Positions 21,604-50,527 of a stretch of 64,000 bases of DNA are shown one piece after another. The DNA comes from Natrialba swarupiae (GTDB taxonomy: Archaea > Halobacteriota > Halobacteria > Halobacteriales > Natrialbaceae). Each line of letters begins with the position of its first letter. Position 1 is the first letter of the stretch. The stretch spans positions 124,001 through 188,000 of the forward strand of contig NZ_VTAW01000002.1 in NCBI RefSeq assembly GCF_008245225.1. The letters are read 5' to 3'. The notes below the pieces were generated by a model. The model had not been told where the DNA came from. It made no database searches and was given only the letters and a program-made list of their open reading frames with translations. The position numbers were made by a program, and so were the translations under genes.

Positions 21604-21613
21604 GCTTTGTAAT
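21604..21613 (-). promoter_or_regulatory. ATTACAAAGC box before the DUF354 gene
   Basis: On the minus strand the box reads ATTACAAAGC and its first base is 34 bases before the ATG at 21579. It differs at one position from the ATAACAAAGC shared by the other surface-glycan units. Confidence 0.6.
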
Positions 21614-21692
21614 CGTACACGTACAAACGAACGTGGGTCGGCGGCGCTGGCGGACCATTCGGTGCGACGAGACGTGTCGGAAAAAGGGGCGG

Positions 21693-21702
21693 ATAACGAA
21701 GC
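21693..21702 (+). promoter_or_regulatory. ATAACGAAGC box before the GT4 gene
   Basis: One mismatch from ATAACAAAGC; its first base is 40 bases before the ATG at 21733. It lies back to back with the box of the divergent DUF354 gene. Confidence 0.5.
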
Positions 21703-21732
21703 GTCGTCGGGCGGTTTCACTCCTCGACCCGG

Positions 21733-22650
21733 ATGCACGTGCTCGCGCTGACGACGAACGACGACGCGCCGTTCATGAACGAGCAGATGCGACTCCTAGA
21801 GCGCCGCGGCGTCTCGTTTTCGACGCTTTCGGTCTCCGGCGACGGCCGCGCGGGCCACTCGAGGGGGCCGACCGACTACCTCCGATTCTTCCCGTCGGTC
21901 CTCCGCGAGTCGACGAACGGCTACGATCTGATCCACGCCCACTACGGGCTGACGGCACCGATGGGCCTCGCACAGTGTCGCAAGCCGGTCGTGCTCTCGC
22001 TGTGGGGATCGGACCTCTACGGCCCGATCGAGCCGATCAGCCGCGCCTGCGTCCCGATCTGTGACGAGGTGGTCGTCATGTCCGAGGAGATGCGGGAGTA
22101 CCTCGGACGGGAGTGTACGGTCGTCCCGGACGGCGTCGACCTCGAGAAGTTCCATCCCGGTCCCAGGCGGGACGCACGCGAGGCGGTCGGCTGGGCCGGC
22201 GACGAGTACCAGGTACTGTTTCCGTACACGCCAAAGCGGACGGTGAAGAACTACCCCCGCGCCCGTCGGATCGTCAACGCGGTCAACGGACTGGTCGACC
22301 GCCCGGTCAGGCTCCGGACGGTCTACGACGTCGATCACGAGACCATCCCGGACTACATGAACGCCGCCGACGCGCTGTTGATGACCTCCGATAGCGAGGG
22401 ATCGCCGAACTCGGTGAAGGAGGCTCTCGCCTGTAACCTCCCGGTCGTTGCAACCGACGTCGGCGACGTTCGGACGCGCCTCGAGGGAGTCTCCCCCTCC
22501 TGCGTGAGCGACGACGACGAGGACCTGGTCGACGGGCTTCGGGAGATCCTCGAGCGCGGCGAGCGATCGAACGGTCGCGAGGCGGCCCGCGAGGTGAGCC
22601 TCGACAACACGGCGACGCGGATGCTCGAGGTGTACGAACGAGTCGTCTAA
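21733..22650 (+). CDS. Glycosyltransferase family 4 protein
   Basis: A 305-residue GT-B glycosyltransferase. The N-terminal half has DLIHAHYGLTAP; the C-terminal half carries the retaining-GT4 donor motif near 221-230, SEGSPNSVKEAL, where the first Glu and the Glu of KEAL contact the nucleotide sugar. VVPDGVDLEKFHPGP is the usual hinge signature. It should add a sugar to a lipid-linked or extracellular glycan at the cytoplasmic membrane face; donor and acceptor are unknown. It is somewhat shorter than typical GT4 enzymes (about 350-400) but both halves are present. Confidence 0.88.
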   Translation: MHVLALTTNDDAPFMNEQMRLLERRGVSFSTLSVSGDGRAGHSRGPTDYLRFFPSVLRESTNGYDLIHAHYGLTAPMGLAQCRKPVVLSLWGSDLYGPIEPISRACVPICDEVVVMSEEMREYLGRECTVVPDGVDLEKFHPGPRRDAREAVGWAGDEYQVLFPYTPKRTVKNYPRARRIVNAVNGLVDRPVRLRTVYDVDHETIPDYMNAADALLMTSDSEGSPNSVKEALACNLPVVATDVGDVRTRLEGVSPSCVSDDDEDLVDGLREILERGERSNGREAAREVSLDNTATRMLEVYERVV

Positions 22651-24062: not shown

Positions 24063-25026
24063 CCCCTTTCCCCTCGAGTTGCGGTGGGACGGCATCGCGC
24101 CCGGCCGCGGCGTACAGTCGGTAGGCTGCGGTCACTACCGGATGCATGTCTCCGTCCGGCGGTAACTCGCCGCCGGAGAGCCGATCGCCGATCGCCTCGA
24201 CGTCAAGCGTTCGCGCCTCCGGCCCGACGCGTTCGACGTCGATTCTCGCCCCGTCCTCGAGCGCGAGTGAGAGTGCGGGCTCCTCGTCGATCGACCGGCC
24301 GAGAAGCGAAGCGGCGACGGCGTCGGTTGGCGCCGTCGGACCGGCGAAGATCGCGTTCGCCGCGTGTGGCGTCCCGCCGTAGGCCGTCGTCGCGTCGAGA
24401 ATCGAGAGCGCGGGATCGACGATGTCGGCGGCCGCGACTGCCGTCGCGTCCGGATCGTCCGTCTCATCGCCGAGCGCTGCGAGCGTCCGCATGCCGCCGG
24501 CAACCGCCCCCGACTCGGTCGGCCTGAGCGTCGGGACGACGACCACGGTGCGCTCGAGGAGGTCGGTCGGCACCGCGAACGGAACCGACCGATCGTCGAC
24601 GGATCGAACGACTCTGGTCCGGCTCGTCTCGTCGTCGATCCCCGAAAACGTCGCTTCGAAGCGTTCGAGAACCGCCGGGTAGCCGAGGTAGGCGGCGGTT
24701 CGGTCGGCGTCGATTCCGGTTCCGGCGCCGACGACGTCGATCTCGGCGTCGCCCCGACGCTCGATGTGGGAGACGAGCGCCCCGACGAGCGCCGGATCGG
24801 TCACCATCCCGGTCGACGGGTGAAAGGGGTAGTGGACGTCGGGAACGACGGCGATTCGATCGGCGTTCTCGATCACAGTGATCGACGGCTCGAGGATCGC
24901 CGAAAGTGACGACTCGAACGTCGCCATCCGCGCGTCGACGTCGGGGAGCCAGCCACCGGTTCGGTCGCCGGCGTCGACGGCGGCCACGCGAACGTGACCG
25001 TGGCTCCCGCCGTGGTCAGCACTCAT
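24052..25026 (-). CDS. DUF362-like protein
   Basis: A 324-residue protein resembling the DUF362 family (nickel-pincer or ferredoxin-linked proteins of unknown role). Recognisable segments are VVPDVHYPFHPSTGMVTDPALVGALV, VDVVGAGTGIDADRTAAYLGY-like and the later TAYGGTPHAANAIFAGPTAP; no cysteine cluster is present, unlike ferredoxin-fused members. The start overlaps the Gfo/Idh stop in ATGA and the end overlaps the epimerase by 11 bases, so the three should be coexpressed and act on a common surface-sugar pathway. That role is inference. Confidence 0.6.
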   Translation of the reverse strand: MSADHGGSHGHVRVAAVDAGDRTGGWLPDVDARMATFESSLSAILEPSITVIENADRIAVVPDVHYPFHPSTGMVTDPALVGALVSHIERRGDAEIDVVGAGTGIDADRTAAYLGYPAVLERFEATFSGIDDETSRTRVVRSVDDRSVPFAVPTDLLERTVVVVPTLRPTESGAVAGGMRTLAALGDETDDPDATAVAAADIVDPALSILDATTAYGGTPHAANAIFAGPTAPTDAVAASLLGRSIDEEPALSLALEDGARIDVERVGPEARTLDVEAIGDRLSGGELPPDGDMHPVVTAAYRLYAAAGRDAVPPQLEGKGDAD

Positions 25027-26126
25027 AGCGTCACCTCCGTCGCCTCGAGATCGTTCGATCCGGTCGGTTTGGCACACTCGTAGGCGGCTTCGGCGAGCTC
25101 GAGCGTCCGCTTGCCGTCGCGGCCATCGACGGGCGGCCGTTCGTCGTTCCGGATGGCGTCGAAAAACGCAGCCAGGGCATCGTAGTGTGCCCGGAGGTAG
25201 AACGTCGGGCCGAAGACGTCCGGGTCGTCTCCGGTCACCCGACCGGCGACGTTTCCGATCGCGGATTTGGCGGCACTCGCATAGAAGTTCTCCGGGAGGT
25301 ACTCCTCGTTGGCGATCGTCCCCGTCACGCCCTCGAGACGGAGCCGCGTGTTGACCTCGGGGAGCTGTTCCCACTGGTAGGAACCACAGTGAAGCGTGAT
25401 CGTCGTCTCGGTCTCCGGCGCCCGGAGCAGTACCGTCGCGGCGTCTTCGACCGGCAACTCGAGCGTCTCGCCGATCGCCGCGCTCTCGACCTCGAGGTCG
25501 CCGAACAGCCACTCGAGGACGTCGAAACAGTGAATTCCGAGTTCGAGCAACGAGCCGCCCCCGGCCGCGTCGGCGTCGAGCGGCCACTCCGGCGGTGAGT
25601 CCGTCGCCGGCGGTCGACCGAGGGCGCCGTCGTTGAGCCGCGTGATCGACGCGTACGGCACGTGACCGACGCGACCGTCCTCGTAGGCCTCCTTGACTCC
25701 AACTACGTCGGGCTGGTAGCGAAGCGTGTGGTCGACGCCCACGGCGATCCCCGCGTCCGTCGCCGCCTCGAGCATCCGGTCGGCTTCCGCGCTCGAGCGG
25801 GCCAAGGGTTTCTCGACGAAGACGTCGATGCCGGCTGCGGCGGCCTGCTCGACGGCGTCCGCGTGGAGAAACGGGGGCAGCGCGACGACCGCGGCGTCGA
25901 GATCCTCCGACTCGAGGAGCGTGGCGTAATCGTCGTACGTCCGCGAGACGCCGGCGCGTTTCGCCCGGGCTCGGTTCTCCGATCGGGCGTCCGCGACCGC
26001 ACGGACGTCCACGCCGGGCATGACCAGCGCCGATTTCAGATGGACAGTGCCGATGTTTCCAGCCCCGAGTACGCCCACAGCGAGTGAATCTGACTCCGTC
26101 AACCGCGAGAGAAGTGCCGTATTCAT
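25023..26126 (-). CDS. Gfo/Idh/MocA-type oxidoreductase
   Basis: A 367-residue dehydrogenase. The NAD(P) motif VLGAGNIG is at 19-26, EKP at 105-107 provides the conserved catalytic Lys, and GIHCFDVLEWLFG near 180 matches the second family signature. Such enzymes oxidise or reduce sugar or inositol hydroxyls. It is the first gene of the three-gene operon with DUF362 and the epimerase. An exact ATAACAAAGC box lies with its first base 34 bases before the ATG. Confidence 0.88.
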   Translation of the reverse strand: MNTALLSRLTESDSLAVGVLGAGNIGTVHLKSALVMPGVDVRAVADARSENRARAKRAGVSRTYDDYATLLESEDLDAAVVALPPFLHADAVEQAAAAGIDVFVEKPLARSSAEADRMLEAATDAGIAVGVDHTLRYQPDVVGVKEAYEDGRVGHVPYASITRLNDGALGRPPATDSPPEWPLDADAAGGGSLLELGIHCFDVLEWLFGDLEVESAAIGETLELPVEDAATVLLRAPETETTITLHCGSYQWEQLPEVNTRLRLEGVTGTIANEEYLPENFYASAAKSAIGNVAGRVTGDDPDVFGPTFYLRAHYDALAAFFDAIRNDERPPVDGRDGKRTLELAEAAYECAKPTGSNDLEATEVTL

Positions 26127-26150: not shown

Positions 26151-26160
26151 GCTTTGTTAT
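26151..26160 (-). promoter_or_regulatory. ATAACAAAGC box before the Gfo/Idh operon
   Basis: Exact copy on the minus strand, followed by CCCG as at two other loci. First base 34 bases before the ATG at 26126. Confidence 0.7.
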
Positions 26161-26323: not shown

Positions 26324-27298
26324 TCAATCGTTCGATCGACTCGCCGGTGCCGGCTGGGAGACCGAGATCACGCCGCCGTTGGCGTCGCTCGCAGTCGTGG
26401 CGTTGCCGTCGACGGTGCGCTGGGCGACACGGTTCATCGTCTCGACGCGGAGATCAGTTTCTGACCGCCGGCGATCGAGATACTCGAGGATCGCCCGCAT
26501 CCGCCGGTCGTCTTGTTTGCCGACGAGGTTGTTCGGATGAAGCCACATGTGGAAGACCCCGTCTCGTCGGACAGCCTCGTCGATACCGCGGCGCACCTGG
26601 ACGACCATCGGATCCCGCCAGATCGACTCTGCAACGGTGCGTGCTGGCCCCTCGAACCCGAACAGGAACAACGACGCCGGAACGTCGACCAGCCCGTACT
26701 CGTCGATCGTCGGCGCGACCAGCATGGACCGGTCGCGGATCGTCGAATCGAGCAATCCCCACACGCCGTCGCCGGTTGGCGACCGGCCACGATACGCACG
26801 TACGCCGTACTCCGCCAGCACGTCCCGGTGGCCGACGCCGTTTCGCGGATAGACGAACGAGTCGATCGAGAGCCCCCAGTCGGCGGCGATCTCGACGCTT
26901 CGCTCGAGTTCGGCCGCGGCGATCTCGGCGTCCGTCTCCGGCCGATCGAAGAGGACGTGCGAAAACGAGTGGCTGGCGAACTCGTGGTCGACGTCGGACT
27001 CGAGGAGGTCGGTGACGAGGTCGGGACAGAATCTGAGGTCCTCGCGGTCGCGCCACGTCGTTCGTTCCCGCTCGAACCACTCGTCCGGTGCGGGATGGTC
27101 AGCGTGTCTCCCGTCACACGACTCGAGCATGAGGTGGCCGACCACCGCCCAGGTCGCGGGAATCTCGTACGTCTCGAACAGTTCGAGCATCGTCGACCAG
27201 CCGCGACGGCCGGCTTCGACGCGACGGCCCGGCAGGGACTCGAGGTCGTGAAACCCCCAGCCGAGTTCGGCATCGAGCGAGATGACGACGCTACCCAT
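26324..27298 (-). CDS. Polysaccharide deacetylase (NodB-like)
   Basis: A 324-residue NodB-homology protein. SLDAELGWG at 8-16 supplies the first acidic metal ligand, and FASHSFSH near 107-114 the two metal-binding histidines. Later motifs are YPRNGVG, RAYRGRSP and MWLHPNNL with the final His. It probably removes acetyl groups from a surface or precursor glycan. No signal peptide is seen, so it may act in the cytoplasm on lipid-linked or nucleotide-linked precursors. An alternative ATG four codons upstream (27310) cannot be excluded. It is divergent from the AP-superfamily gene. Confidence 0.82.
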   Translation of the reverse strand: MGSVVISLDAELGWGFHDLESLPGRRVEAGRRGWSTMLELFETYEIPATWAVVGHLMLESCDGRHADHPAPDEWFERERTTWRDREDLRFCPDLVTDLLESDVDHEFASHSFSHVLFDRPETDAEIAAAELERSVEIAADWGLSIDSFVYPRNGVGHRDVLAEYGVRAYRGRSPTGDGVWGLLDSTIRDRSMLVAPTIDEYGLVDVPASLFLFGFEGPARTVAESIWRDPMVVQVRRGIDEAVRRDGVFHMWLHPNNLVGKQDDRRMRAILEYLDRRRSETDLRVETMNRVAQRTVDGNATTASDANGGVISVSQPAPASRSND

Positions 27299-27347
27299 CG
27301 GACCCACCACGGCGTACAGTCATATCCGTAGCGCAACCGACCGGACG

Positions 27348-27357
27348 GTTTTGTTAT
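27348..27357 (-). promoter_or_regulatory. ATAACAAAAC box before the deacetylase gene
   Basis: Minus-strand variant with one change from ATAACAAAGC. Its first base is 47 bases before the ATG at 27310 and 59 before 27298, longer than at the other loci. Confidence 0.4.
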
Positions 27358-27573: not shown

Positions 27574-27583
27574 ATAACAAAGC
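27574..27583 (+). promoter_or_regulatory. ATAACAAAGC box before the first AP-superfamily gene
   Basis: Exact copy preceded by CTCT. Its first base is 54 bases before the ATG at 27628, about 20 more than the usual spacing, so a short untranslated leader is likely. Confidence 0.6.
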
Positions 27584-27627: not shown

Positions 27628-29220
27628 ATGAGTGCATCTACTCCGAGATCCGAGCGAGCGTTCGTGCTCGGGCTCGACGGCGTCCCGTGGAACCTTCTCG
27701 AACAGTGGACAGACAGGGGCGAACTCCCCAACTTCGAGCGACTGCGTGAGGAAGGGGCATCCGGTCCGCTCGTAAGCACCAGTCCGCCGACGACGCCGCT
27801 CGCGTGGCCGTCGATCGCGACCGGCGTCTGGGCCGACAAACACGGTATCTACGGCTTCCAGAACCTCTCCGCTGAGTATAGCCACGAGATGTATACGAGT
27901 CGGGATCTGAAACAGCCGACGCTCTGGGACCTGCTCTCGCCGGCCCACGTCGGGAACGTTCCGATGACCTACCCCGTTCGCGAACTCGACGGAACGATGG
28001 TCTCCGGGATGATGACACCCTCGACCGAGCGCGAGTTCACGTATCCGCCCGACCTCGGCGAAGAGATCGAGTCGCGCGTTCCCGACTATCGGATCAGTCT
28101 CGACTATCCCGAGTACGCCGGTCGGCTCGACGCCTTCGAGGAGGCCGTCGACGAGATGCTCGCGAACCGTCGCGAGGTAATGGACATCCAGATGGAACGC
28201 GCCGACGACGACTGGCAGCTGTTTTTCTTCGTCTACACCGCACCCGACCGATTCCAGCATCTTACCTGGGATCTGGATCGCCTCCTCGAACACTACCGGC
28301 AACTCGACGACCTCCTCGGGGAGGTGATGGAGTACACCGAGCGCCACGACGCGGACCTCTACGTCGTCTCAGATCACGGCTTCGGGCCGATTTACGAACT
28401 CGTCTACGTCAATCACGTTCTCGAGCGGGAGGGGTACCTCTGCAGACGCGAAGACGAGGGGACCAGGGGAGCGCTCGCGAGCCTGGGAATCTCGCGTGAG
28501 CGTATCACGAACGTCTTAGAGCGGGTCGGAATCTCCGAGGAGATGCTCGTCTCGACGCTGCCACGGGGACTCGTCGACTCGGTCGCCGAGCAGATCCCAG
28601 GGGATCACGCCCTCTACGACGTCGACTACGATCGAACGCGCGCGTTCGTCCACGGTGCCGGGAACTGTTATATCAACGACACCAACCGGTTCGAGCACGG
28701 CGTCGTCTCGCCGGTCGACGTCCCGTCGGTCAAAGACGAGCTCATCGAGATCTTCGAATCGGTCACGGACGACGACGGGAATCGAGTTCTCACCGTCGAA
28801 GACGGCGACGAGCTGTTCCCGACGGACGACGACTCGCCCGACCTCGTCGTCAACGGCGTCGACGGCTACGAGTCACGAAACGCGATCACGGACGAGCCGT
28901 TCGGGGACACCGGAACGTACGCCGCGAGCCATCGGAAACAGGGAATCGTCCTCTGTCACGGCCCGACGATCGACGCCGGCGCGACCCTCCGCGGCGCTCG
29001 CGTCGTCGACGTCGCCCCGACGCTGCTCCACGGAATCGGCCAACCGGTCCCTGCGAACGCCGACGGCCGCGTCCTCTTCGATGCGTTCCGGACCGATGCG
29101 AAGCCGTCCCGTACGAAAGTCGAGCGAGTCGACGTCTCGAGACGCGACGAAGACGACGACGTCCACGACGATTTCGCCGACGTCGAGAGCCGCCTGAAAG
29201 GGCTCGGCTACATGGAGTGA
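27628..29220 (+). CDS. Alkaline-phosphatase-superfamily phosphodiesterase/transferase
   Basis: A 530-residue AP-superfamily enzyme (type I phosphodiesterase group). LGLDGVPW places the first metal Asp at 17; the nucleophile segment is TTPLAWPSIATG near 52-63 followed by KHGIYGF; SDHGFGP near 250 and SHRKQGI near 435 give further metal ligands. No signal peptide or membrane segment is visible, unusual for an extracellular phosphatase, which suggests a cytoplasmic substrate such as a nucleotide-linked or lipid-linked glycan intermediate. It is paralogous in plan to the enzyme at 50551-52176. Both end in a matching motif, LKGLGYME here and LSDLGYL there. Confidence 0.82.
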   Translation: MSASTPRSERAFVLGLDGVPWNLLEQWTDRGELPNFERLREEGASGPLVSTSPPTTPLAWPSIATGVWADKHGIYGFQNLSAEYSHEMYTSRDLKQPTLWDLLSPAHVGNVPMTYPVRELDGTMVSGMMTPSTEREFTYPPDLGEEIESRVPDYRISLDYPEYAGRLDAFEEAVDEMLANRREVMDIQMERADDDWQLFFFVYTAPDRFQHLTWDLDRLLEHYRQLDDLLGEVMEYTERHDADLYVVSDHGFGPIYELVYVNHVLEREGYLCRREDEGTRGALASLGISRERITNVLERVGISEEMLVSTLPRGLVDSVAEQIPGDHALYDVDYDRTRAFVHGAGNCYINDTNRFEHGVVSPVDVPSVKDELIEIFESVTDDDGNRVLTVEDGDELFPTDDDSPDLVVNGVDGYESRNAITDEPFGDTGTYAASHRKQGIVLCHGPTIDAGATLRGARVVDVAPTLLHGIGQPVPANADGRVLFDAFRTDAKPSRTKVERVDVSRRDEDDDVHDDFADVESRLKGLGYME

Positions 29221-31349: not shown

Positions 31350-31359
31350 ATAACAAACG
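31350..31359 (+). promoter_or_regulatory. ATAACAAACG box before the membrane-protein unit
   Basis: A variant that keeps ATAACAAA. Its first base is 38 bases before the ATG of a short leader frame (31388) and 82 before the likely GTG of the membrane protein. Confidence 0.5.
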
Positions 31360-31387: not shown

Positions 31388-31435
31388 ATGCGTACGGATA
31401 CGAGCGTCGTTGGTTGCTGGGGTGGGTTTGTGTGA
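31388..31435 (+). CDS. Possible 15-residue leader peptide coupled to the membrane protein
   Basis: ATG at 31388 opens a 15-codon frame, MRTDTSVVGCWGGFV, ending in TGA at 31433-31435. Its stop overlaps the likely GTG start of the membrane protein in the sequence GTGA, the layout of translational coupling. Its start is 38 bases from the ATAACAAA box, near the spacing seen for the neighbouring glycan genes, whereas the membrane-protein start is not. Too short to judge by composition, so it may be chance. Confidence 0.35.
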   Translation: MRTDTSVVGCWGGFV

Positions 31436-33249: not shown

Positions 33250-33259
33250 ATAACAAAGC
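33250..33259 (+). promoter_or_regulatory. ATAACAAAGC box before the CoA-transferase unit
   Basis: Exact copy followed by CCGAG. First base 36 bases before the ATG at 33286. Confidence 0.7.
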
Positions 33260-33285: not shown

Positions 33286-34506
33286 ATGTCTGCCCTCGAT
33301 GACGTGTGTGTGCTGGATCTGACGAGGGTCCTCGGTGGACCGTACTGTACGATGCTGCTGGCCGATATGGGTGCCGACGTGGTGAAAGTCGAACCGCCCG
33401 GTGGCGATTTCGTTCGCCAGACACCGCCGTTTCACGAAGACGACGACAGCTTCGGCGGCTACTTCCAGAGTATCAACCGCGGCAAGCGGAGTCTCGAACT
33501 CGACTTCACCGACGAACGCGACCGCGAGGAGTTTCGATCCCTCGTCGAGACGGCCGACGTCGTCGTCGAGAACTACCGCTCGGGGACGATGGAGAAGTTC
33601 GGCCTCGAGTACGAGCGACTCGCCGAGATCAACCCGCGTCTCGTCTACGCCGCGATGCGAGGGTTCGGCGATCCGCGAACGGTCTCGAGTCCACGACAGG
33701 ACGAGCCGGCGTTCGACCTGGTCGCGCAGGCCCTTGGCGGGATCATGCATCACACCGGCCAGGAGGACGGCCCGCCGACGAAAGTCGGGTTCGGCGTCGG
33801 TGACATTTTCACGGGCGTGCTCCACGCGGTCAACATCCTCGGCGCGTTGCACTACCGGGATCGGACGGGCGTCGGCCAGTTCGTGGATACGGCGATGTAC
33901 GACGCGATGATCAGCCTGGCCGAGCGGGCGGTGTATCAACACTCCTACACCGGCGAGAACCCGACCCGGTGTGGGAACGCACACCCGACGCTGTTCCCGT
34001 ACAACGCCTTCGAGGCCGAGGACGGCTACGTCGTCATCGCCGCGCTCACCGACCGCCACTGGCGGAACCTTTGTGAGCGGATGGATCGTCCGCAGTGGGC
34101 TGTCGACTATCCCGAGGCGTCCGATCGCCTCGCACACAGAGATCGACTGGAGGAGGGGATCGCCGACTGGGTCGCCACCCTCTCGGTCGAATCGGTCCTT
34201 TCCGAACTCAACGGGGCCGTTCCGTGTGGCCCGGTCCAGGATATCACCGACGTCTACGACAGCGAACACGCCCACCAGCGTGAGATGCTCGTCGAGGCCG
34301 AACTTCCCCACTCCGAGGAGACGGTGACGATCGCGGGGACGCCCATCAAGATGGCCAAGACGCCGCCGTCGCCCGGAGAACGCGCGCCGCTTCTCGACGA
34401 ACACCGGAGCGAGATCGTCGACAGAGAGGACGCGATCCACTCGAGCCGCCACGAAACCGACTCGAGTCCCGTCGGCGTCACCGACGGAAACCCCCAGAAC
34501 GACTGA
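33286..34506 (+). CDS. Class III (CaiB/BaiF) CoA transferase family protein
   Basis: A 406-residue family III CoA transferase. LDLTRVLGGPYCTMLLADMGADVVKVEPP forms the N-terminal signature in parts, and PAFDLVAQALGG carries the catalytic Asp144 that forms the acyl anhydride. It would transfer CoA between carboxylic acids. The acid is unknown. It sits in a surface-glycan block and is followed after 8 bases by a GNAT acyltransferase, so it may supply an acyl-CoA for glycan acylation, an inference. It is driven by an ATAACAAAGC box 36 bases before the ATG. Confidence 0.88.
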   Translation: MSALDDVCVLDLTRVLGGPYCTMLLADMGADVVKVEPPGGDFVRQTPPFHEDDDSFGGYFQSINRGKRSLELDFTDERDREEFRSLVETADVVVENYRSGTMEKFGLEYERLAEINPRLVYAAMRGFGDPRTVSSPRQDEPAFDLVAQALGGIMHHTGQEDGPPTKVGFGVGDIFTGVLHAVNILGALHYRDRTGVGQFVDTAMYDAMISLAERAVYQHSYTGENPTRCGNAHPTLFPYNAFEAEDGYVVIAALTDRHWRNLCERMDRPQWAVDYPEASDRLAHRDRLEEGIADWVATLSVESVLSELNGAVPCGPVQDITDVYDSEHAHQREMLVEAELPHSEETVTIAGTPIKMAKTPPSPGERAPLLDEHRSEIVDREDAIHSSRHETDSSPVGVTDGNPQND

Positions 34507-34514
34507 TCGGAGCT

Positions 34515-39657: not shown

Positions 39658-40257
39658 TCACTCGATCCGGGAGAGTTTGCCGTTGACGGAGCGCTCACGT
39701 CGGCGGTTCCGAACGGTGTGGACGGCCGACAACAGCAAAAACGCGAGAACGACCGTGCCGGCGACCGCGATGGTCGGAACGGCCGACAGCGGCGGAACAC
39801 CGAAGAACGCTGCCCCAACGAGTCCCACGCCGCCGACGCTAAGTAGGCCGTACCACCGATCCCATCGGTCCTGCTGGTGAGAGTCGGTGTCCAGGTACAT
39901 CATCAGGAGATCCGCGTTGTCCGCGAGCGTAATGAGCCCACGATCCTGGTCGTACTCGACGATTCCCGCGTCGTCCATCTTGGGGAGATGAGTCTGATAC
40001 AATGCGACGTACACCCGTTTTCGCTGGTCGGAGCTGAGCGCGTTGACGTCCGTATCGTTCTCCCAGGCCGCGATCTGTTCGGCGAGTTCGCCGAGCGTTA
40101 CCGTCTCCTCCGCCTCGAGGAGGTACGCGAGGACTTCCCGTCGGCGTCGGTTTTTCAGGAGTTCGAAAATGACGTCCTTCGAGAGTCCCTCATCGTCTTC
40201 AGACTGAGAGACCGACGACGAAATCTCGTCGGGCAGAGACGTATCGATCGACGACAT
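39658..40257 (-). CDS. DUF7344 winged-helix regulator with two membrane segments
   Basis: A 199-residue membrane-anchored regulator. The N-terminal part (about 20-105) is a winged helix of the DUF7344 type: FELLKNRRRREVLAYLLEAEE, TLGELAEQIAAWEN, KRVYVALYQTHLPKMDDAGIVEYD. Two membrane segments follow (about 135-155 and 158-180), then a short basic tail. It probably binds DNA near the membrane in response to an envelope or energy signal; targets are unknown. A hairpin mobile element abuts its stop codon. Confidence 0.85.
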   Translation of the reverse strand: MSSIDTSLPDEISSSVSQSEDDEGLSKDVIFELLKNRRRREVLAYLLEAEETVTLGELAEQIAAWENDTDVNALSSDQRKRVYVALYQTHLPKMDDAGIVEYDQDRGLITLADNADLLMMYLDTDSHQQDRWDRWYGLLSVGGVGLVGAAFFGVPPLSAVPTIAVAGTVVLAFLLLSAVHTVRNRRRERSVNGKLSRIE

Positions 40258-41029: not shown

Positions 41030-41983
41030 ATGACACAGTCCATTATCGACCATACTACGCGCGAGTCTCAGCGAGCGGATGCCGAACTGTGTCCCGATTG
41101 TGAGACCGATACGATCGTCCACGACCCCGACCGAGGCGAACGAGTGTGCCGGGAGTGCGGTCTCGTCCTAACCGAAGATCCGATCGATTACGGGCCCGAG
41201 TGGCGGGCGTTCAACGCGAAAGAACACGACCAGCTCTCGCGCGTCGGCGCACCCCTCACTCAGTCGATGCACGACCGCGGGCTGACGACGACGATCGACT
41301 GGCGAAACAAGGATGCGAAAGGACACTCGGTGTCGTCCGATAAACACGGGCAGATTCATCGCCTTCGCGTCTGGCAGGAACGGATTCGGACGAAAAACGC
41401 CGGCGAACGAAATCTCAAGTACGCGCTCTCGGAGATCGATCGAATGGTCAGCGCACTCGGCGTCCCCAACCCAGTCAAGGAGACCGCGAGCGTCATCTAC
41501 CGACGGGCGCTCGATCAGGATCTCATCCGCGGCCGATCGATCGAAGGCGTCGCGACCAGCGCGCTCTACACCGCCTGCCGAAAGGAGGATATCCCGCGGA
41601 GCCTCGAGGAGGTGACGGCAGTTTCACGCGTCGACCAGCGGGAGATCGGCCGCACCTACCGATACATCGCGGACGAACTCGACATCAACCTCGAGCCGAC
41701 GAACCCGAGACAGTTCGTCCCGCGATTCTGTTCGGAACTCGACGTCGACAAGGACGTCGAGACGAAGGCGATCGAGATCATCGACCGCACGACCGAACAG
41801 GGGCTTCACTCCGGAAAGTCGCCGACCGGGTTCGCCGCCGCCGCGATCTACGCCGCCGGATTGCTCTGCGAGGAGACGATTCCCCAGCGGGCCGTCGCCG
41901 ACACCGCACAGACGACGGTCGTCACGGTCCGAAACAGGTACCGAGAACAACTCGAGGCGATCGACCAGACACCCGCTACATGA
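41030..41983 (+). CDS. tfb: Transcription initiation factor TFB
   Basis: A 317-residue TFIIB homologue. The zinc ribbon has Cys21, Cys24, Cys40 and Cys43; the B-finger/reader follows (EWRAFNAKEHDQLSRVGAPL), then two cyclin repeats (about 115-200 and 210-305). It recruits RNA polymerase to TBP-bound promoters and recognises the BRE. Haloarchaea carry several TFBs with different promoter preferences, so this one could serve the local promoter boxes, which is speculation. The ATG at 41030 gives the usual length. Its last 8 bases overlap the convergent gene. Confidence 0.93.
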   Translation: MTQSIIDHTTRESQRADAELCPDCETDTIVHDPDRGERVCRECGLVLTEDPIDYGPEWRAFNAKEHDQLSRVGAPLTQSMHDRGLTTTIDWRNKDAKGHSVSSDKHGQIHRLRVWQERIRTKNAGERNLKYALSEIDRMVSALGVPNPVKETASVIYRRALDQDLIRGRSIEGVATSALYTACRKEDIPRSLEEVTAVSRVDQREIGRTYRYIADELDINLEPTNPRQFVPRFCSELDVDKDVETKAIEIIDRTTEQGLHSGKSPTGFAAAAIYAAGLLCEETIPQRAVADTAQTTVVTVRNRYREQLEAIDQTPAT

Positions 41984-42256: not shown

Positions 42257-43984
42257 TTACTCCTCTACGGTGAACTCCTCGAGCCGATCGCTGAGTTCCG
42301 TCGCCCGCTCGGACAGCGACTCTGCTGCGCCGGCGATGTCGGCGATCGTCGCGGTCTGTTCCTCGACGGCGGCTGCGACGCTGCTCGTCTCTTTCAACGT
42401 CCGCTCGCTCCGTTCGGTCGCCGTATCGACCATCGTGACGACTTGCTGACTCGAGCGCGCCTGCTCGTCGGTGGCATCGTCGATCGACTGAATCCCCTCG
42501 TTGGCGTCCTGGACGCGGTCGGCGATCTCCGTGAGCGCGTCGAGACTCTCCTCGATCGTCTCGACGCCCTCGACGACCTCCCGTCGCATCGTTCGGATCT
42601 CCTCGAGTGCTCGTCCGGCCGACGACTGAACGTCGCCGACCACGGCGTCGACGTCGTCGGTCGCGTCGCTCGTCTCCTCGGCGAGCGATCTGACCTCGGT
42701 CGCGACGACGGCGAACCGTTTCCCGTCCGCACCGGCTCGAGCCGCCTCGACCGAGGCGTTGATCGCGAGTAGGTTCGTCTCCTCGGCGATCCCGTCGATC
42801 ACGTCGACGATGTCACCGACCTCCGAGAGGTCGTCCTCGAGCGTTTCGATCCGGTCGACGATCTCCCCGGCGCGTCGTTCGATGCGATCGAGTTCGTCGA
42901 GTGCGTCGGTCGCCGTTTCGCGACCGGCTTGTGCACGCTTGGTCGCCGCCGCCGAGACGTCCGCGACGCCGTCGGCCGTCGCGGCGATCTCCTCGATCGT
43001 CGCCGAGAGGTCACTCATCTCACCGAGGACGTCTTCGAAACGATCGTTCTGTTCGTCCGTCGCGATCGAAATCTCCTCTGCGGATTGGCTGACGTCTTCG
43101 CTGGCCGCCTCGATCTGCCGGACGCTCTGTGAGACCTCGCGTCCGACGTCTTCGACTTCCAGCGCGAGCGTCTGGATGCCGTGGAGCGTCCCCTCGATGT
43201 CGTCGAGGGTCTCGTTCAATCCGTCAGCGATCTCGTTCATCGCGTCGTGGTCGCTTTCGGCCGTCACGCGGCGGGTGAAATCGCCCTGGCGACATCGGTC
43301 CAGAACCGCTCGTATCCGTTCGGCGTCGGCCTCGAGCGTCGCGTTTCGCTGTTCGACGCGCTCACGCTGACGGTCGATCTGCTGGCGGCTCTCCTCGAGT
43401 TCTCCGATTCGGTCTTGCAAGCCTGTCTGCATCGCCTCGAGCGAGTCGCCGAACTCGCCGGGGACTCGCTCGTCGAGGACGTCAGCGTCGAACTCCTCGC
43501 AAGCGAGTGCATCCGCCTGGGCCGCGACCGTCCTCAGGTGGGCGTGCATCGAGTCGAACGAGCGCTGGAGGTCGCCGATCTCGTCCGACTGATCCGTCCG
43601 TTCCGGCCGATCGTCGAGCCGTCCCGACGCGATGGCGTCGGCAGCCGTCCGAAGGGACAGGATCGGTCCGACGATGTCACGGCGAGCGATCAGGAGCGTG
43701 TTGACGAACGCGACCACCGAGAGCGCAAAGACGAGGCCCGTCAACACGATCTGTGCGGTCGGAAAGACCGCGATCGCTTCTCGCGGCCCGAGAAACGCGA
43801 GCGGAAGCGCAAAGACGGCGAGCGTCGAGAGAAACTGCAGGAAGACCGCCGCCATGATCTTACGCTCGAGGCTCTCGGCGATCCCGATTCGTTCCATCAC
43901 TCCCCACAGTGCCGTCTCGTATCGCTCCCGTATCGACGTTGTCCGGCCGTCGAATCCATCGAGTTCTGAAGAAGCGGTCGACAT
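42257..43984 (-). CDS. Methyl-accepting chemotaxis transducer without external sensor domain
   Basis: A 575-residue Htr-type protein. Two membrane segments (about 43-65 and 75-99) are separated by only some ten residues, so there is no extracellular ligand domain. A HAMP region (about 100-155), a linker coiled coil and the signalling domain follow, with the hairpin tip near [19 protein letters not shown]. It likely senses a membrane, cytoplasmic or protein-bound signal and controls CheA and the archaellum. A TATA-like gttaagtag at about 44006-44014 is 22-30 bases upstream. Confidence 0.9.
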
Positions 43985-44196
43985 ACGCTGAAATTCCCGA
44001 AGGACTACTTAACTGCGGTGGCTAGTACCAGATCGTCGAAATACATCACTAATTCAACTGGTCTGTCGGTCGAGGGAAACGCGGCTCACCGGCGCGACGT
44101 GAGTAGCATACGGACGACCCTCGGGACGCGGTCGAGAGACGAAACGGGCGAGACACGAGCGAAATGGGTTTACTCCCGCCGACGGTAGATCCCCCA

Positions 44197-46179
44197 GTGA
44201 CCGACGAACGTTCCTCCGAGCGGGCGACCGACGGAGCCGCCGGCAACTCCGACGCTGTGTCGGACAACGGGGACGACCCTGACGGGCGAGAGACTGCGGG
44301 CGAGACGAACGAACCGAACGACGTCGACGGACCCGACGAATCGAGCGATGACGACGGACCGGGCGAAGCCGACGGCGAAATCACGCTCGCGACGTTCCAC
44401 GAGGCCTGCCAGCGCGAGGGGCGACCGGTGCTCACCGCCGGTGCCGTCGCTCGAGCGCTCGAGTATCCCCACGACGCGGTCAGCGAGCGCCTCGACGACC
44501 TCGCCGACCGCGGTGATCTCGAGCGACTCTCGGTGTCGACCGATCCGGTCGTTTGGTACCCGAGCGAACTCGAGGATCTGACCGACCGAGAGCGGATCGT
44601 CGTCTTTCCGAAACGACGTGAGATCGTCGTCGACCGACCGGAGCAGTTCACCCGCGCGCAACTGGCACAGTTCGCCCACCTCGCCGACGCGAACGGCGCG
44701 GACGGCTACCGATACGTCGTCCGACCGGAGGACGTCTGGCAGGCCCCACACGACTCCTTCGAGGCCCTCGAGCGGACGATGCGCCAGGCGCTCGGATCGC
44801 GAAACGACGAGCTCGAGGAGTGGGTCCACAGCCAGTGGGATCGTGCCCACCAGTTCCGCTTGCGGACCCACGAGGACGGCTACACGGTCCTCGAGGCGAA
44901 CAGTCCGGAGGTAATGGGTAACGTCGCCCGCCAGAAACTCGACGAGGAACACGTCCACGCGCCGATCTCGGAGACCGAAGACTGGGTCCGTGAGGGGGCA
45001 GAAGCCGCGATCAAGCGAATTCTCTACGAGGCTGGCTACCCCGTCCAGGACCACCGGGATCTCGACTCTGGCGAGTCGCTGTCGATCGACCTCGAGGTCA
45101 GCCTGCGGGAGTACCAGCGAACGTGGGTCGATCGCTTCGCTGAGAGTGGCGAGGGGATCTTCGTCGGTCCGCCAGGCAGCGGCAAGACTGTCGCGGCGAT
45201 GGGTGCGATGGCCCACGTCGGCGGCGAGACCCTGATTCTCGTTCCGAGCCGGGATCTGGCCCGCCAGTGGGCCGAGGCCGTCGTCGAGTACACCTCCCTC
45301 GAGCCAGCACAGGTCGGACAGTACCACGGCGGGCAAAAGCAGGTCAGACCGGTAACGATCGCCACGTACCAGATCGCCGGGATGGACCGCCACCGGTCGC
45401 TGTTCGACGATCGGGAGTGGGGGCTCGTCGTCTTCGACGAGTGCCAACACGTTCCCTCGGACGTCTACCGGCGGAGTACGCACCTCCAGTCGCGGAACCG
45501 ACTGGGACTGTCAGCGTCGCCAATCCGTGAAGACGACCGACAGACGGAGATTTTCACCCTCGTTGGGCCGCCGATCGGCACCGACTGGCAGGCGCTGTTC
45601 GACGCCGGCTTCGTCGCCGAGCCCGAACTCGAGATCAGGTACGTCCCCTGGGGTGACGAGGAGCAACGAAACGCCTACGTCTCGGCGGAGGGCCGCAAGA
45701 AGTACCGGATCGCCGCCGAGAACCGAGGGAAGGTCGACGAGGTCAGCTACCTGCTGTCGGCTCACCCGAACTCGAAGGCGCTCGTCTTCGTCGACTATCT
45801 CGAACAGGGCTGGGAGATCGCCGCCGCACTCGACGTTCCCTTCCTCAGCGGCGAGACCCACCACCACGAGCGCCAGCGCCTGTTAGAGGAGTTTCGCCGC
45901 GACGAACGCGACCTCCTCGTGATCTCGCGGGTCGGCGACGAGGGGATCGACCTCCCGACGGCGGATCTCGCGATCGTCGCCTCGGGTCTCGGCGGCTCGC
46001 GACGACAGGGGACCCAGCGGGCTGGCCGGACGATGCGACCCGCCGGCGGCGCGCTCGTCTACGTGCTCGCGACGCGGGGCACGCGCGAGGAGGAGTTCGC
46101 CCGCCGACAGCTCCAGCATCTCGGGAGGAAGGGGATGACGGTTCGCGAACGGACGGTCGATTCGTCCGACGAGAGCTGA
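44197..46179 (+). CDS. XPB/Rad25-like DNA repair helicase
   Basis: About 660 residues. A long acidic N-terminus (about 1-60) precedes a winged-helix-like region (TLATFHEACQREGRPVLTAGAVAR in parts) and a damage-recognition-like domain, then the helicase core: GPPGSGKT (about 324-331), DECQH (about 415-419) in place of DEVH, and QRAGRTMRP (about 608-616). XPB opens DNA during nucleotide excision repair. The nuclease Bax1, often next to archaeal XPB, is absent here. A GTG at 44197 with tttact 25-30 bases upstream is preferred; an ATG at 44164 would add 11 residues. Confidence 0.85.
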   Translation: MTDERSSERATDGAAGNSDAVSDNGDDPDGRETAGETNEPNDVDGPDESSDDDGPGEADGEITLATFHEACQREGRPVLTAGAVARALEYPHDAVSERLDDLADRGDLERLSVSTDPVVWYPSELEDLTDRERIVVFPKRREIVVDRPEQFTRAQLAQFAHLADANGADGYRYVVRPEDVWQAPHDSFEALERTMRQALGSRNDELEEWVHSQWDRAHQFRLRTHEDGYTVLEANSPEVMGNVARQKLDEEHVHAPISETEDWVREGAEAAIKRILYEAGYPVQDHRDLDSGESLSIDLEVSLREYQRTWVDRFAESGEGIFVGPPGSGKTVAAMGAMAHVGGETLILVPSRDLARQWAEAVVEYTSLEPAQVGQYHGGQKQVRPVTIATYQIAGMDRHRSLFDDREWGLVVFDECQHVPSDVYRRSTHLQSRNRLGLSASPIREDDRQTEIFTLVGPPIGTDWQALFDAGFVAEPELEIRYVPWGDEEQRNAYVSAEGRKKYRIAAENRGKVDEVSYLLSAHPNSKALVFVDYLEQGWEIAAALDVPFLSGETHHHERQRLLEEFRRDERDLLVISRVGDEGIDLPTADLAIVASGLGGSRRQGTQRAGRTMRPAGGALVYVLATRGTREEEFARRQLQHLGRKGMTVRERTVDSSDES

Positions 46180-46235
46180 TACGAACAGTCGTACCGATCT
46201 CCCGGTGTTCGGAGCGGCCCACTGTCCGTCCTCGG

Positions 46236-46562
46236 TCAGCCGACTTCGGCGACCGGCGTCCGCTCGGCGTCGACGGTTTCGACCTCGTCGACGCGTCGGA
46301 CGCCGACGCCGCCCTCGAGTTCGCGTCTCACCAGCGCGTCGTCCGCGCCCTCGTCGTCGAACGTCAGGTCGGCGCGAACGTGGAGTTCGACGACGGTGTC
46401 GTTGAGTCCGGGCTGGACGCCCCTGACTTCGACGTCCTCGAGGTGGGAGACGGCGTCTATTCGTTCGACGACTCTCGTCGCACCGTCGGCGAGGCTCCCG
46501 GTGGCGTTCACTGGAACGCGCACGGCGAGTCTCACCACGACGGCGTGCAGTTGTCGTGCCAT
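46236..46562 (-). CDS. Small haloarchaeal protein, unknown function
   Basis: A 108-residue protein with alternating hydrophobic strands (HAVVVRLAVRVPVN, VVELHVRADLTFDD) and an acidic C-terminus; no recognised domain. The ATG at 46562 is taken because the frame above it looks non-coding. It is convergent with the XPB-like gene, 56 bases between stops; a TACGA...-like sequence abuts the XPB stop and may be a decayed hairpin element. Confidence 0.5.
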   Translation of the reverse strand: MARQLHAVVVRLAVRVPVNATGSLADGATRVVERIDAVSHLEDVEVRGVQPGLNDTVVELHVRADLTFDDEGADDALVRRELEGGVGVRRVDEVETVDAERTPVAEVG

Positions 46563-47281
46563 ACGCCCTCGTCGAGAGTCGAACTCGAGGCCGGGACCGA
46601 ACCCGGCTGGCCAGCCCACGAGGGTCGTCGTGGCTGGCCGAACGGTCGACACCGTCTACTTCGTGAGAGTGGAAGAAGGTGAGATCCGTCCGGCCAGCGT
46701 TCGGGGCTTACGCGGCGCGGACGGACCCGATATCACCGATAATCGACATCGGATAGCCGACGACCGCGCCGAACCCGCCCCAGGCCGCCCCGGTTCCTTC
46801 AGCAGGGGCGGCGATAGCCTCCGCAGCGCTATTGACGCGTGCGAAAGCCGAGATATGGGTTGTGAGCGCGGTCATCGGTCGAAACGGTCGCGGTGTGCGA
46901 CCCGTCGATCCAAACGTCTGCCGGGAATGACATAATTGTTTCTCAGGCGTGGTATATCATGGCATTACCGAGTTGTGAACTCCCGTACGATTGGTGGTCG
47001 GTCGCCCACCGGCGGCTCGATTCCGGTTTCCTCCCGGTACGGATCGACGTCGGAACGCGCTCCACCGCCGGCTCATACGGACTGCTGTGACTGATTGTCG
47101 GTCGATCGTCTGCCGTTCGTCGATCGACCGGGATCGGCTCGTCGCTGTCCGTATCGGGGTGGCCGCTTCACTGTTGGCTCGAGAGGACCGCCCCGTCGAC
47201 ACGAATATTCAAGGTGTCGTGTTGAAACGGTAATTCTATGACTAGCGTGTGTGGATCGAACCGGGTCGAGGTGAACGGGTC
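46563..47281. other. Intergenic region with one hairpin element
   Basis: No gene is supported between the small protein and the HerA-like gene. It holds the diverged hairpin element at 47076-47153 and an AT-rich patch near 46927-46960. A plus frame at 46893-47090 lacks haloarchaeal composition. Confidence 0.5.
47076..47153. mobile_element. TACGG hairpin element, copy C (diverged)
   Basis: A 78-base segment with ends TACGGACTGC...GCTGTCCGTA and an inner stem CGGTCGATCG pairing with CGATCGACCG. The left flank is TCA, the right flank TCG, so a target duplication has decayed or is absent. Length and layout match copies A and B, but the inner stem has different sequence. Confidence 0.55.
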
Positions 47282-49063
47282 GTGAGCGACGAGCGGGTGA
47301 TCGTCGGCGAGACCGCCGACGGCTCCGACGTCGCGCTTCCGGTGGTCCAACTGTTAACCGGTCGCGGCTTCGTGACGGGGAAGTCCGGAAGCGGCAAGTC
47401 CAATACCGCGTCGGTGATCGCCGAGGAGTTACTCGACGCGGGATTTCCGCTGCTCATCGTCGACACCGACGGGGAGTACTACGGCCTGAAAGAGGAGTAC
47501 GAGATGTTGCACGCGGGCGCAGACGAGGAGTGTGACATCCAGATCGGTCCGGAACACGCCGAACAGATGGCGACGCTCGCCTTAGAGGAGAACGTCCCCG
47601 TTATCCTCGACGTCTCCGGCTACTTGGACGAGGAGGTCGCGGACGAACTCATCAAGGAGATCGCCCGCCAGCTGTTCGTCAAGGAGAAGAAACTGAAAAA
47701 GCCGTTCTTACTCGTCGTCGAGGAGGTCCACGAGTACATCCCCGAGGGCGGCGGCGTCGGCGAGACCGGCAAACTCCTCATCAAGATCGGCAAACGCGGC
47801 CGGAAACACGGCCTCGGCATCCTGGGGATTAGCCAGCGTCCCGCGGACGTCAAGAAGGACTTTATCACGCAGGCGAACTGGCTCGTCTGGCACCGACTCA
47901 CCTGGGAGAACGACACCAAGGTCGTCGGCCGGATCATCGACACCGAGTACGCCGAACTCGTCTCCGATCTCGGCGACGGCCAGGCGTTCGTCCAGACCGA
48001 CTGGACCGAAGCCGACGTCCGCAAGGTGCAGTTTCGGCGCAAGCGGACGTTCGACGCGGGCGCGACACCCGGCCTCGACGACTTCGAACGACCCGAACTC
48101 AAATCCGTCTCCGACGCGCTCGTCGGCGACCTCCAGGAGATCTCGGAACGAAAGGAGCGCAAACAGGATCGGGTTCACGAACTCGAGTCCGAACTCCAGA
48201 AAAAGGAAAAACGGATCGAAACCTTGGAGAACGAACTCGAGTCCGCCCGGGACGTCTCGAACGCAGCGAAACAGATGGCCGACGCGTTGAGCAACCCGAA
48301 CACCGTCCAGTCGAAGTTACCGAACGGCGACGAGGAGCTTCGCCGCCTCCACGACGAGGTCGTGGAACTCGAGGACGAACGCGACGACCTGAAGGCCGAC
48401 CTCGAGGCCCGCAAGGGGCGCATCGAGACGCTCCAGACCGAACTCGAGGACCGCGAGGAGCGCATCGAAGCCCTCGAGTCGGAACTCGACTCTCGTTCGG
48501 ACCTGATCCGACGGCTCAGAGACGAGACCGAACGGCTTCGAAACCGCGTCGACGAACTCGAGCGCGACGGCGAGCGTCCGGACGAATCCGCGGACGCGAG
48601 CGTCTCCGCGGACGCCGAGGAGATCGAAAACGCAGTCGCGGACGTCGAGGCGGGCGACTCGTCGACCGACGACGCGATCGTCCACGGCGGCGGTGAAGAG
48701 TTCGAGTTCGGCTACGTCAGCGTCGACGACCCGGAAACCAGTTCACGGATCGTCGTCGCGAACGATCGACGGGAGTTCTCTGACTACCTCGAGACGGCCG
48801 GGATCGCCGAACCGGTCGAGCGGGGGAGCGAGCGATCGCGGTGTTCGACGGAGACTGCGGCGGTGGTTCTGGCGATACTGGCCAGTGAGGGACCGCTCGA
48901 CGTCGACTCGCTTTCCGTTCGGGTTGGCCGCTCCCCGGTCGCAGTCCAGAGCTTACTCTCCGAGCTTCGGAGCGAGTCGATCCTCGATCGGAGTGACGAC
49001 CGGCGGTACGGGCTGGCTGACGACGTTCGATCGAAGCTCGTGTTGGTGGCCGGTGACGAGTGA
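47282..49063 (+). CDS. HerA-like ATPase with coiled coil and C-terminal winged helix
   Basis: About 593 residues. The ATPase domain has Walker A GKSGSGKS (33-40), VDTDGEYYGL, and Walker B LLVVEEVHEYIP (about 141-152); ISQRPADVKKD and NDTKVVGR follow as in HerA/VirB4-type DNA pumps. A long charged coiled coil (about 275-430) and a winged-helix-like C-terminus (VLAILASEGPLDVDSLSVRVG, RSESILDR) follow. No NurA nuclease lies beside it, so it is not the classical HerA-NurA pair. It may translocate or regulate DNA. The GTG at 47282 gives MSDERVIVG; a GTG at 47249 is possible. Confidence 0.8.
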   Translation: MSDERVIVGETADGSDVALPVVQLLTGRGFVTGKSGSGKSNTASVIAEELLDAGFPLLIVDTDGEYYGLKEEYEMLHAGADEECDIQIGPEHAEQMATLALEENVPVILDVSGYLDEEVADELIKEIARQLFVKEKKLKKPFLLVVEEVHEYIPEGGGVGETGKLLIKIGKRGRKHGLGILGISQRPADVKKDFITQANWLVWHRLTWENDTKVVGRIIDTEYAELVSDLGDGQAFVQTDWTEADVRKVQFRRKRTFDAGATPGLDDFERPELKSVSDALVGDLQEISERKERKQDRVHELESELQKKEKRIETLENELESARDVSNAAKQMADALSNPNTVQSKLPNGDEELRRLHDEVVELEDERDDLKADLEARKGRIETLQTELEDREERIEALESELDSRSDLIRRLRDETERLRNRVDELERDGERPDESADASVSADAEEIENAVADVEAGDSSTDDAIVHGGGEEFEFGYVSVDDPETSSRIVVANDRREFSDYLETAGIAEPVERGSERSRCSTETAAVVLAILASEGPLDVDSLSVRVGRSPVAVQSLLSELRSESILDRSDDRRYGLADDVRSKLVLVAGDE

Positions 49064-49106
49064 GGAACCGACATACAGGAAACCGTACGAGTCGTCGCCG
49101 GTGAAA

Positions 49107-50270
49107 TCACCGAACCAGTCGATTTCCGGCATCGACGATCGCCGCGGGGTCGATCTGCTGGTGAACGGGAAGCGTAACGATCTCCCTGGAGAGACGCCTC
49201 GCGGTGTCGTAATCCGGGTCGTCGAGAACTGACGAGGACAGCCGCGGCCAGGTGTGGACGCCATCGACCGCACAGGCCTCGAGTTCCGCGAGAAAGCCCT
49301 CGGGATGGTCGGCACGAACCGGAACCACCTGGGGGCAGATTCCTGTAGGGAGGGAGTCGAAGACGACCTGGAGGTCGTCTCGCGCCTGGAGGATCTCCTG
49401 CCACGCCCGGTAGTTTCTCCGGCGTTCGGCCCGGACTCCGTCGGGGTCGACATCCTCGAGAACGTCCCAGGAGAGCTTCGCCATCGGCCGCTTTCCCCGC
49501 TCGTAGCGTTCACGCGGTCCGCCAACGGCCGGCGTGTCACCCCGTCCAGCGACGAGCGCGTCGATGGATCGGCGAACCGCTCCGTTAGCCCCGAACAGGT
49601 CGTCGACGATCGACGACGCGACGAACCGACAGTCGACGGTCCCGATGCCGTTTCGCACACCGGCCGACGACGAGGGGTCGTACCGGTCCGCTACCGTTTC
49701 GTCGGTCAGATAGAGGAGCGCACCGTCGGGGATCGGCAACACCTTCCAGAGGCTCGTAATCCCGAGGTGGCCCCGCGTTCCGAGCAACGTTCCGTCGTCG
49801 ACGCTGAACGAGCCGTGTGCGTTGTCGTCGACGTGATAGCAGTCGTACTCGGCGACGAGTGCCTCGAGCTCGGCGAGCCCCGGTTGTGGAAAGCCGAAGT
49901 AGTTGACCGAGACCACGGCGGCCGTCTCGTCGTCCAACCGCTGCTCGAGGTCGGCGAGGTCGGGTGCCAGCGACGGCTCGATCCGGTAGTAACGGGTCTC
50001 GAGACCGAGTTCGGCGAACGGTTCGGCGACGCCGTCGGGGAGATACGCCGGAACGAGGACGTTCTCTCCCGGTTCGACGAGTCCGGCGAGACCATCCCTG
50101 AGTGCGGCCTTTCCCGACCCGTAGTAGGCGAATTCGCGAACGAACTGCTCGACGAACAGTTCGATACCGGCCGGCCGTTGGTTCGACAGCGAGGCGACGA
50201 ACAGCGACGGCGTTCCGTCGATCATCGACGACGCCCCTCCCGACCGACGACCCGTGTTGTCAGAGAACAT
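49107..50270 (-). CDS. DegT/DnrJ-type PLP aminotransferase-like protein
   Basis: A 387-residue fold-type I PLP protein. YYGSGKAALRDGL near 49-62 is the N-terminal signature, HVDDNAHG (147-153) holds the acidic residue that contacts the PLP ring nitrogen, and SLWKVLPIPDGALL holds Lys176, the Schiff-base Lys. DegT members make amino sugars or other surface-glycan building blocks. The ATG at 50270 is used; a second ATG 15 codons in is possible. It is convergent with the HerA-like gene and divergent from the second AP-superfamily gene. Confidence 0.8.
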   Translation of the reverse strand: MFSDNTGRRSGGASSMIDGTPSLFVASLSNQRPAGIELFVEQFVREFAYYGSGKAALRDGLAGLVEPGENVLVPAYLPDGVAEPFAELGLETRYYRIEPSLAPDLADLEQRLDDETAAVVSVNYFGFPQPGLAELEALVAEYDCYHVDDNAHGSFSVDDGTLLGTRGHLGITSLWKVLPIPDGALLYLTDETVADRYDPSSSAGVRNGIGTVDCRFVASSIVDDLFGANGAVRRSIDALVAGRGDTPAVGGPRERYERGKRPMAKLSWDVLEDVDPDGVRAERRRNYRAWQEILQARDDLQVVFDSLPTGICPQVVPVRADHPEGFLAELEACAVDGVHTWPRLSSSVLDDPDYDTARRLSREIVTLPVHQQIDPAAIVDAGNRLVR

Positions 50271-50517
50271 GCCTCGACTACCTGGCCCATACCGTCGGTA
50301 ACTCGTCGAGAGTGGCCTTAGTGATGGGTGCAGTACGCTCGAGATAGCGCCTGAAACCGATCCTTACACTGGCGTTCGTTCGCACAGTCCGACCAGCCAG
50401 GAGACCTGTAGACGACCTCGATCGACCGCCGCCGTGAGAACGGGGAGTCGTGTTTCCTCGGGATCACCGACTATCGACACGCCGTGAAGAGCCGGCTTAC
50501 AGGCCCAAAGCACTCGC

Positions 50518-50527
50518 ATAACAAAGC
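50518..50527 (+). promoter_or_regulatory. ATAACAAAGC box before the second AP-superfamily unit
   Basis: Exact copy followed by CCGG. First base 33 bases before the ATG at 50551, and 17 kb from the nearest other box. Confidence 0.7.

Follow-up and report, generated by a model that had tools for sequence, protein, structure and literature searches.

A conserved promoter box of surface-glycan genes in Halobacteriales, with a family-specific TFB as a candidate reader

A short box, ATAACAAAGC, precedes surface-glycan genes of Natrialba swarupiae and their homologues in other haloarchaea. The box has a defined sequence and sits at the TATA position, is conserved among relatives and largely restricted to envelope genes, and lies in promoters from which the normal signal is missing. 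That this element exists and marks a surface-glycan regulon is, taken alone, very probable. The fuller reading, which we favor with some reserve, is that the box belongs to a dedicated, non-canonical core promoter of surface-glycan genes that would be read by a dedicated factor, in Natrialbaceae most likely a TFB encoded in the same gene cluster. The promoter activity, start sites, co-regulation and reader proposed below are predictions drawn from sequence comparisons.

Results

Box sites in the N. swarupiae genome

We analyzed a 64-kb stretch of the N. swarupiae genome (the window). All eight box sites named in the original prediction lie where it had placed them, on the same strands; they are listed here with a related element at 50316.

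21604..21613, minus strand: box ATTACAAAGC; start of a DUF354-type glycosyltransferase gene (20449-21579, minus) 34 bases on
21693..21702, plus strand: box ATAACGAAGC; start of a GT4-type glycosyltransferase gene (21733-22650) 40 bases on
26151..26160, minus strand: exact box ATAACAAAGC; start of a GFO/IDH/MocA oxidoreductase gene (25023-26126, minus) 34 bases on
27348..27357, minus strand: box ATAACAAAAC; start of a polysaccharide deacetylase gene (26324-27310, minus) 47-59 bases on
27574..27583, plus strand: exact box; start of a type I phosphodiesterase-like gene (27628-29220) 54 bases on
31350..31359, plus strand: box ATAACAAACG; gene for a large protein, no family assigned, start near 31432, stop 33231
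33250..33259, plus strand: exact box; start of a CoA-transferase III / GNAT pair (33286-35729) 36 bases on
50316..50325, minus strand: related element GTA-N8-ATCACTAAGG; DegT aminotransferase-like gene (49107-50270, minus) downstream
50518..50527, plus strand: exact box; start of a phosphodiesterase / FemAB-like pair (50551-53183) 33 bases on

Gene starts are predicted throughout, and gene names rest on family-search E-values and homology, which do not prove function. The expected spacing, 33-36 bases from box to start codon at five sites and 40 at one, is found at most of the sites where a distance could be assigned, with 54 bases at 27574, and breaks down at 27348 and 31350. The ATG 34 bases past the 27348 box opens a frame of only ten codons, and the start candidates of the deacetylase are GTGs at -47/-50 or an ATG at -59 from the box; the ATG at -38 from the 31350 box is out of frame, and comparison with relatives places the start of the large protein near the GTG at 31432, about 82 bases past the box. 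Both boxes are conserved in relatives despite these failed spacings. The CCCG said to follow the box is shorter by one base, CCG, since its first C is the last C of the box itself. PMM of the same cluster has a different, weaker element. The CoA-transferase III / GNAT pair is boxed and lies within the surface-glycan cluster.

The exact box occurs four times in the 64 kb of the window, where 0.01 copies are expected, and seven times with at most one mismatch (0.29 expected). The 4.2-Mb genome has no further exact copy, and the reversed control gives five hits in it; all four copies lie in promoters of one glycan cluster and, as predicted, no housekeeping gene lies behind any of them. With at most one mismatch there are 42 matches genome-wide and 87 for the reversed control, so the box is no general feature of the genome; the signal is its concentration in the window, not its genome-wide frequency. 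The surface-glycan regulon that had been proposed is upheld when the flanking positions are included, and equal frequency before unrelated genes was not seen: WA-N8-ATAACAAA-N14-W is found at 11 places in the genome and one in the control, and nine of the 11 precede glycan or linked regulator genes.

Window: five matches
Second glycan locus, contig C60: two matches, at a DUF1616 membrane protein gene and a PadR gene
Contig C49: one match, at a PadR gene
Contig C95: one match, at a DUF354 glycosyltransferase gene
Contigs C99 and C41: two matches, at genes for Tat-type secreted proteins, the C41 match lying in an AT-rich tract

The second glycan locus is on a separate contig (C60, ~24.3-27.4 kb), outside the window cluster, and its operon of hexapeptide transferase, DegT, GFO_IDH, UDP-glucose dehydrogenase and GT2 genes has a variant box of its own. 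A DUF7344 gene is divergent from this operon, and the same divergent pairing is seen in other families.

The box occupies the place of TATA

With its flanks, the element reads RWA-N8-ATAACAAA(G/A)C-N12-W. The upstream RWA, which adds to the original description of the box, lies at -11 to -9; when 87 exact boxes of N. swarupiae and its relatives are aligned with their flanks, 85% have the A at -9, and by reading RWA is found at all eight sites named earlier, variants included. On the downstream side, an A or T is present at +22 in 92% of long-leader boxed promoters, with no enrichment at +20 or +21. This W is kept in most homologue groups taken separately, however far away the start codon lies, the GFO_IDH group being without it. 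From box center to W there are 17.5 bases, nearly the spacing of TATA and WW in ordinary promoters, and the box therefore stands in for TATA.

Ordinary promoters, taken from 20 other stretches of the genome and the window, have AA at -34/-33, a T-rich segment at -29 to -26 and WW at -11/-10. Their unsupervised matrix, CGAAACGCTTATGC, agrees with the published haloarchaeal core promoter of a CGAAA BRE, a TTWT TATA element and a -10 WW (PMC4983044). Boxed promoters score far below ordinary ones on this matrix (p = 2.7e-7) and slightly above shuffled sequence. They lack the canonical CGAAA BRE and TTWT TATA ~26-37 bases before the start and, except for the GFO_IDH group, they do have an AT-rich -11/-10 element at the fixed TATA distance. 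The box had been placed where TATA and BRE contacts would be, and its center indeed falls where ordinary CGAAA/TTAT promoters have TATA; conservation also extends over more bases than in an ordinary TATA, as had been noted. RWA, at about -45 to -43, is farther upstream than a normal BRE, and this placement could reflect a separate DNA-binding protein.

Transcription is predicted to start ~33 bases past the first base of the box, which would make several boxed genes leaderless. Standard TBP and TFB should load poorly on such promoters because the box takes the TATA position and CGAAA/TTAT is absent; a dedicated factor would switch on the whole boxed gene set together.

Conservation in Natrialbaceae and beyond

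The box with RWA is present in 92 of 96 Natrialbaceae genomes, at ~309 sites compared with 8 for the reversed pattern (totals summed by hand from a per-genome table), and in 117 of 296 genomes outside the family. Within Natrialbaceae the boxed orthologues encode the GFO_IDH oxidoreductase, polysaccharide deacetylase, phosphodiesterases, CoA-transferase, glycosyltransferases and the protein of 31432-33231. Both signs of a shared regulon that we looked for were found, namely conservation before orthologous genes in relatives and enrichment before related genes with rarity elsewhere. In 22 genomes, 83 of 118 sites lie within 50 kb of another, where random placement gives 12.7, although that test takes no account of contig breaks and related genomes do not give independent counts. 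The two blocks 24 kb apart that had been described are instead parts of one conserved cluster of ~40 kb.

Site by site, the box at 21604 has GTA at -11..-9, and the variant ATTACAAAG is kept with GTA in relatives; at 21693, several relatives have an exact box at the equivalent place. The 26151 box is found with GTA or ATA in all 14 promoters compared (12 exact, two ATAACAAAAC), and the 27574 box in 16 of 16, exact in 14. At 27348, ATAACAAA(A/G)C is kept in most relatives; at 31350, 15 of 16 have ATAACAAAC(C/G/T) with W at +22, mostly with RWA as well. The 33250 box precedes orthologues in six genomes. Seven relatives keep the 50316 element, with GTA and in most cases with W at +22; it is a looser member of the box class.

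For the 50551 gene, 80 named homologues were compared, from Natrialba, Natrinema, Natronorubrum, Haladaptatus, Halorussus, Haloferax, Actinarchaeum and others; ~77 have in their promoter the box or a variant close to it (ATAAC(A/G/C)AAGG and similar). In Haloferax, Haladaptatus, Halorussus and other genera, the boxes before glycan genes are divergent; boxed genes in other families encode flippase-like and UDP-GlcNAc epimerase-like proteins, nucleotidyltransferases and hexapeptide acetyltransferases, names that come from homology and sequence inspection and for only part of them from Pfam. These comparisons point to a real, order-wide class of surface-glycan promoter, in which the box would be the center of a dedicated core promoter throughout Halobacteriales. 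In the open-access literature searched we found no surface-glycan promoter class of this kind, and of 42 matches to the exact box string in open-access text, the 20 listed concern unrelated subjects. In two genera an exact box also lies 36 bases before a gene whose product is small and cysteine-rich; this gene appears to stand outside glycan clusters.

A cluster-encoded TFB as candidate reader

The box probably has a dedicated reader. Two genes of the window are candidates.

41030..41983, plus strand: TFB (TFIIB-like) paralogue, 317 aa, with a Pfam Zn ribbon (PF08271) and two PF00382 stretches
39658..40257, minus strand: DUF7344 protein, candidate regulator, with a C-terminal hydrophobic, membrane-like segment

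The first has the N-terminal Zn ribbon and two cyclin-like repeats of a TFB and aligns to Pyrococcus TFB. Its orthologues, separated from all other hits by a gap in E-value (1e-178 vs 1e-137), are present in 87 of 96 Natrialbaceae genomes and none of the 296 others; they form a monophyletic clade with a long stem and little internal variation, 83-93% identical to the window copy. In the second helix-turn-helix the cluster TFB reads TTVVTVRNRYREQ, compared with VTEVTIRNRYQEQ in the closest ordinary paralogues; in the TFB/TBP/BRE structure it is this helix that contacts BRE. All 18 cluster TFB sequences compared have TTVVTV for VTEVTI, a change at positions that do not vary among the ordinary close paralogues; the helix of Pyrococcus TFB (PDB 1d3u), VTEVTVRNRY, is like theirs.

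A family-linked clade with an altered BRE-reading helix makes the cluster TFB the leading candidate in Natrialbaceae, where the factor would most likely be this TFB acting with a TBP. That it reads the box there is plausible from its sequence but short of an even chance, and that surface-glycan genes have a private core promoter in place of TATA and BRE, read by a TFB/TBP pair specific to the box, is possible rather than probable. Natrialbaceae genomes with the cluster TFB average 3.4 boxes and those without it 1.1, a difference confounded by cluster linkage.

The cluster TFB is not a universal reader: it is absent from the 296 genomes outside Natrialbaceae, many of them boxed, and it is therefore not present wherever the element is used, as a promoter-specific TFB should be; its DNA-reading helix does differ from that of ordinary TFBs, as such a factor's should. 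Because boxes persist without it in genus g7, Haloferax, Halorussus, genome G316 (four boxes with RWA) and others, it cannot be the only reader. A dedicated TFB/TBP, as originally proposed, is a hypothesis that the cluster-encoded, family-specific TFB with its changed DNA-reading helix fits, but boxes are also present in genomes lacking this TFB. In five genomes checked outside Natrialbaceae, no TFB gene lies within ~30 kb of a box.

Genome G260, a non-Natrialbaceae genome with seven boxes with RWA, encodes a separate TFB (G260:C60:121768-122622) with the helix TVVTVRNRY. This helix resembles that of the cluster TFB, a point in favor of a TFB as reader, and the N-terminal region is without zinc-ribbon cysteines. 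We rejected this type as the reader: its orthologues (86-100% identity) are limited to genera g89 and g76, and their distribution agrees only weakly with that of boxes.

Alternative readings of the box

The box may instead be the site of a winged-helix regulator, PadR-type or the cluster DUF7344 protein, that recruits ordinary TBP and TFB to promoters with poor TATA and BRE, in the manner of TFB-RF1 and EarA. A small PadR-type gene (91 aa) has a conserved box in this genome and three other genera, and a second PadR gene, at the C60 glycan locus, has a variant box. The DUF7344 gene adjoins the TFB gene in relatives too, in conserved synteny, and DUF7344 genes adjoin boxed genes in Natrialbaceae, the Haloferax family and, as paralogues, other families. 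The RWA at about -45 to -43 would fit such a regulator, and activators acting on weak BREs are known (PMC5937170, PMC5512572, PMC5817253). However, activator sites normally lie upstream of TATA and BRE, whereas the box replaces them; several distant box clusters have no PadR or DUF7344 gene in the 20-kb stretches examined; and both gene types may be numerous enough to lie near boxes by chance. We regard this reading as a serious but minority possibility.

It is improbable that the box is simply an accepted variant of the haloarchaeal core promoter, used by standard TBP and TFB with no dedicated factor. Its position and -10 spacing do match ordinary promoters, and looser relatives exist (ATCACTAAGG, ATAAC(G/C)AAGG), but in its strict form the motif is found before few genes other than envelope genes, every base of it is kept between distant relatives, and the canonical signal is missing beside it. 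Recent duplication of promoter-bearing DNA, or chance, is ruled out by the comparative data: the two boxed phosphodiesterase genes are homologous (~28% identity), but the element is constant while flanks differ among sites, the boxed homologue groups are unrelated, and conservation crosses families.

Discussion

Haloarchaea have many TBP and TFB paralogues, and whether they serve different promoters is a long-standing question. The element described here is conserved, takes the place of TATA and precedes few, related genes, and one family has a linked TFB with an altered helix. These features bear on the question and offer a concrete test case for whether archaeal gene sets are assigned to particular basal factors, as bacterial ones are to sigma factors. 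A box-specific TFB/TBP pair, if true, would be a sigma-factor-like division of labor among archaeal basal factors. Whatever the reader, the element would allow envelope-glycan genes in hundreds of genomes to be picked out by sequence alone, and it suggests that the cell surface, which meets viruses, salt and other cells, is under coordinated control.

Boxed promoters share position relative to the start codon, -10 spacing and a predicted leaderless architecture with the haloarchaeal core promoter, and differ in having ATAACAAAGC for CGAAA/TTAT, an upstream RWA and largely envelope genes only (PMC4983044). The UV-inducible promoters of Sulfolobus likewise carry a short, non-palindromic regulon element at fixed spacing, the hexamer A(N)TTTC at -44 to -39, and a role of the TFB paralogue TFB3 is suspected; there the sequence and the genes are different, and the hexamer lies upstream of a recognizable TATA and a weak BRE, whereas the box replaces both (PMC5817253). 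Dedicated control of genes with off-consensus basal elements is also known for EarA and the fla genes of Methanococcus maripaludis (PMC5512572) and for TFB-RF1 of Pyrococcus furiosus (PMC5937170). Both are known activators, whereas boxed promoters have only candidates, and the fla promoter keeps its TATA intact where the box takes its place. The cluster TFB belongs with the expanded haloarchaeal TFB/TBP families (PMC4230888); it differs in forming a Natrialbaceae-restricted clade linked to a glycan cluster, with a hypothetical box-specific recognition.

Other genes of the cluster

Unboxed genes for an MCP (chemotaxis-type), an XPB helicase and a HerA-like protein (42257-49063) are retained within the glycan cluster in most Natrialbaceae examined. 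A conserved 71-aa ORF (55152-55367, minus strand) was rejected as a regulator, as it encodes a small CxxC zinc-ribbon-like protein. This protein is highly conserved in the cluster, and its paralogues lie near boxed glycan loci of relatives.
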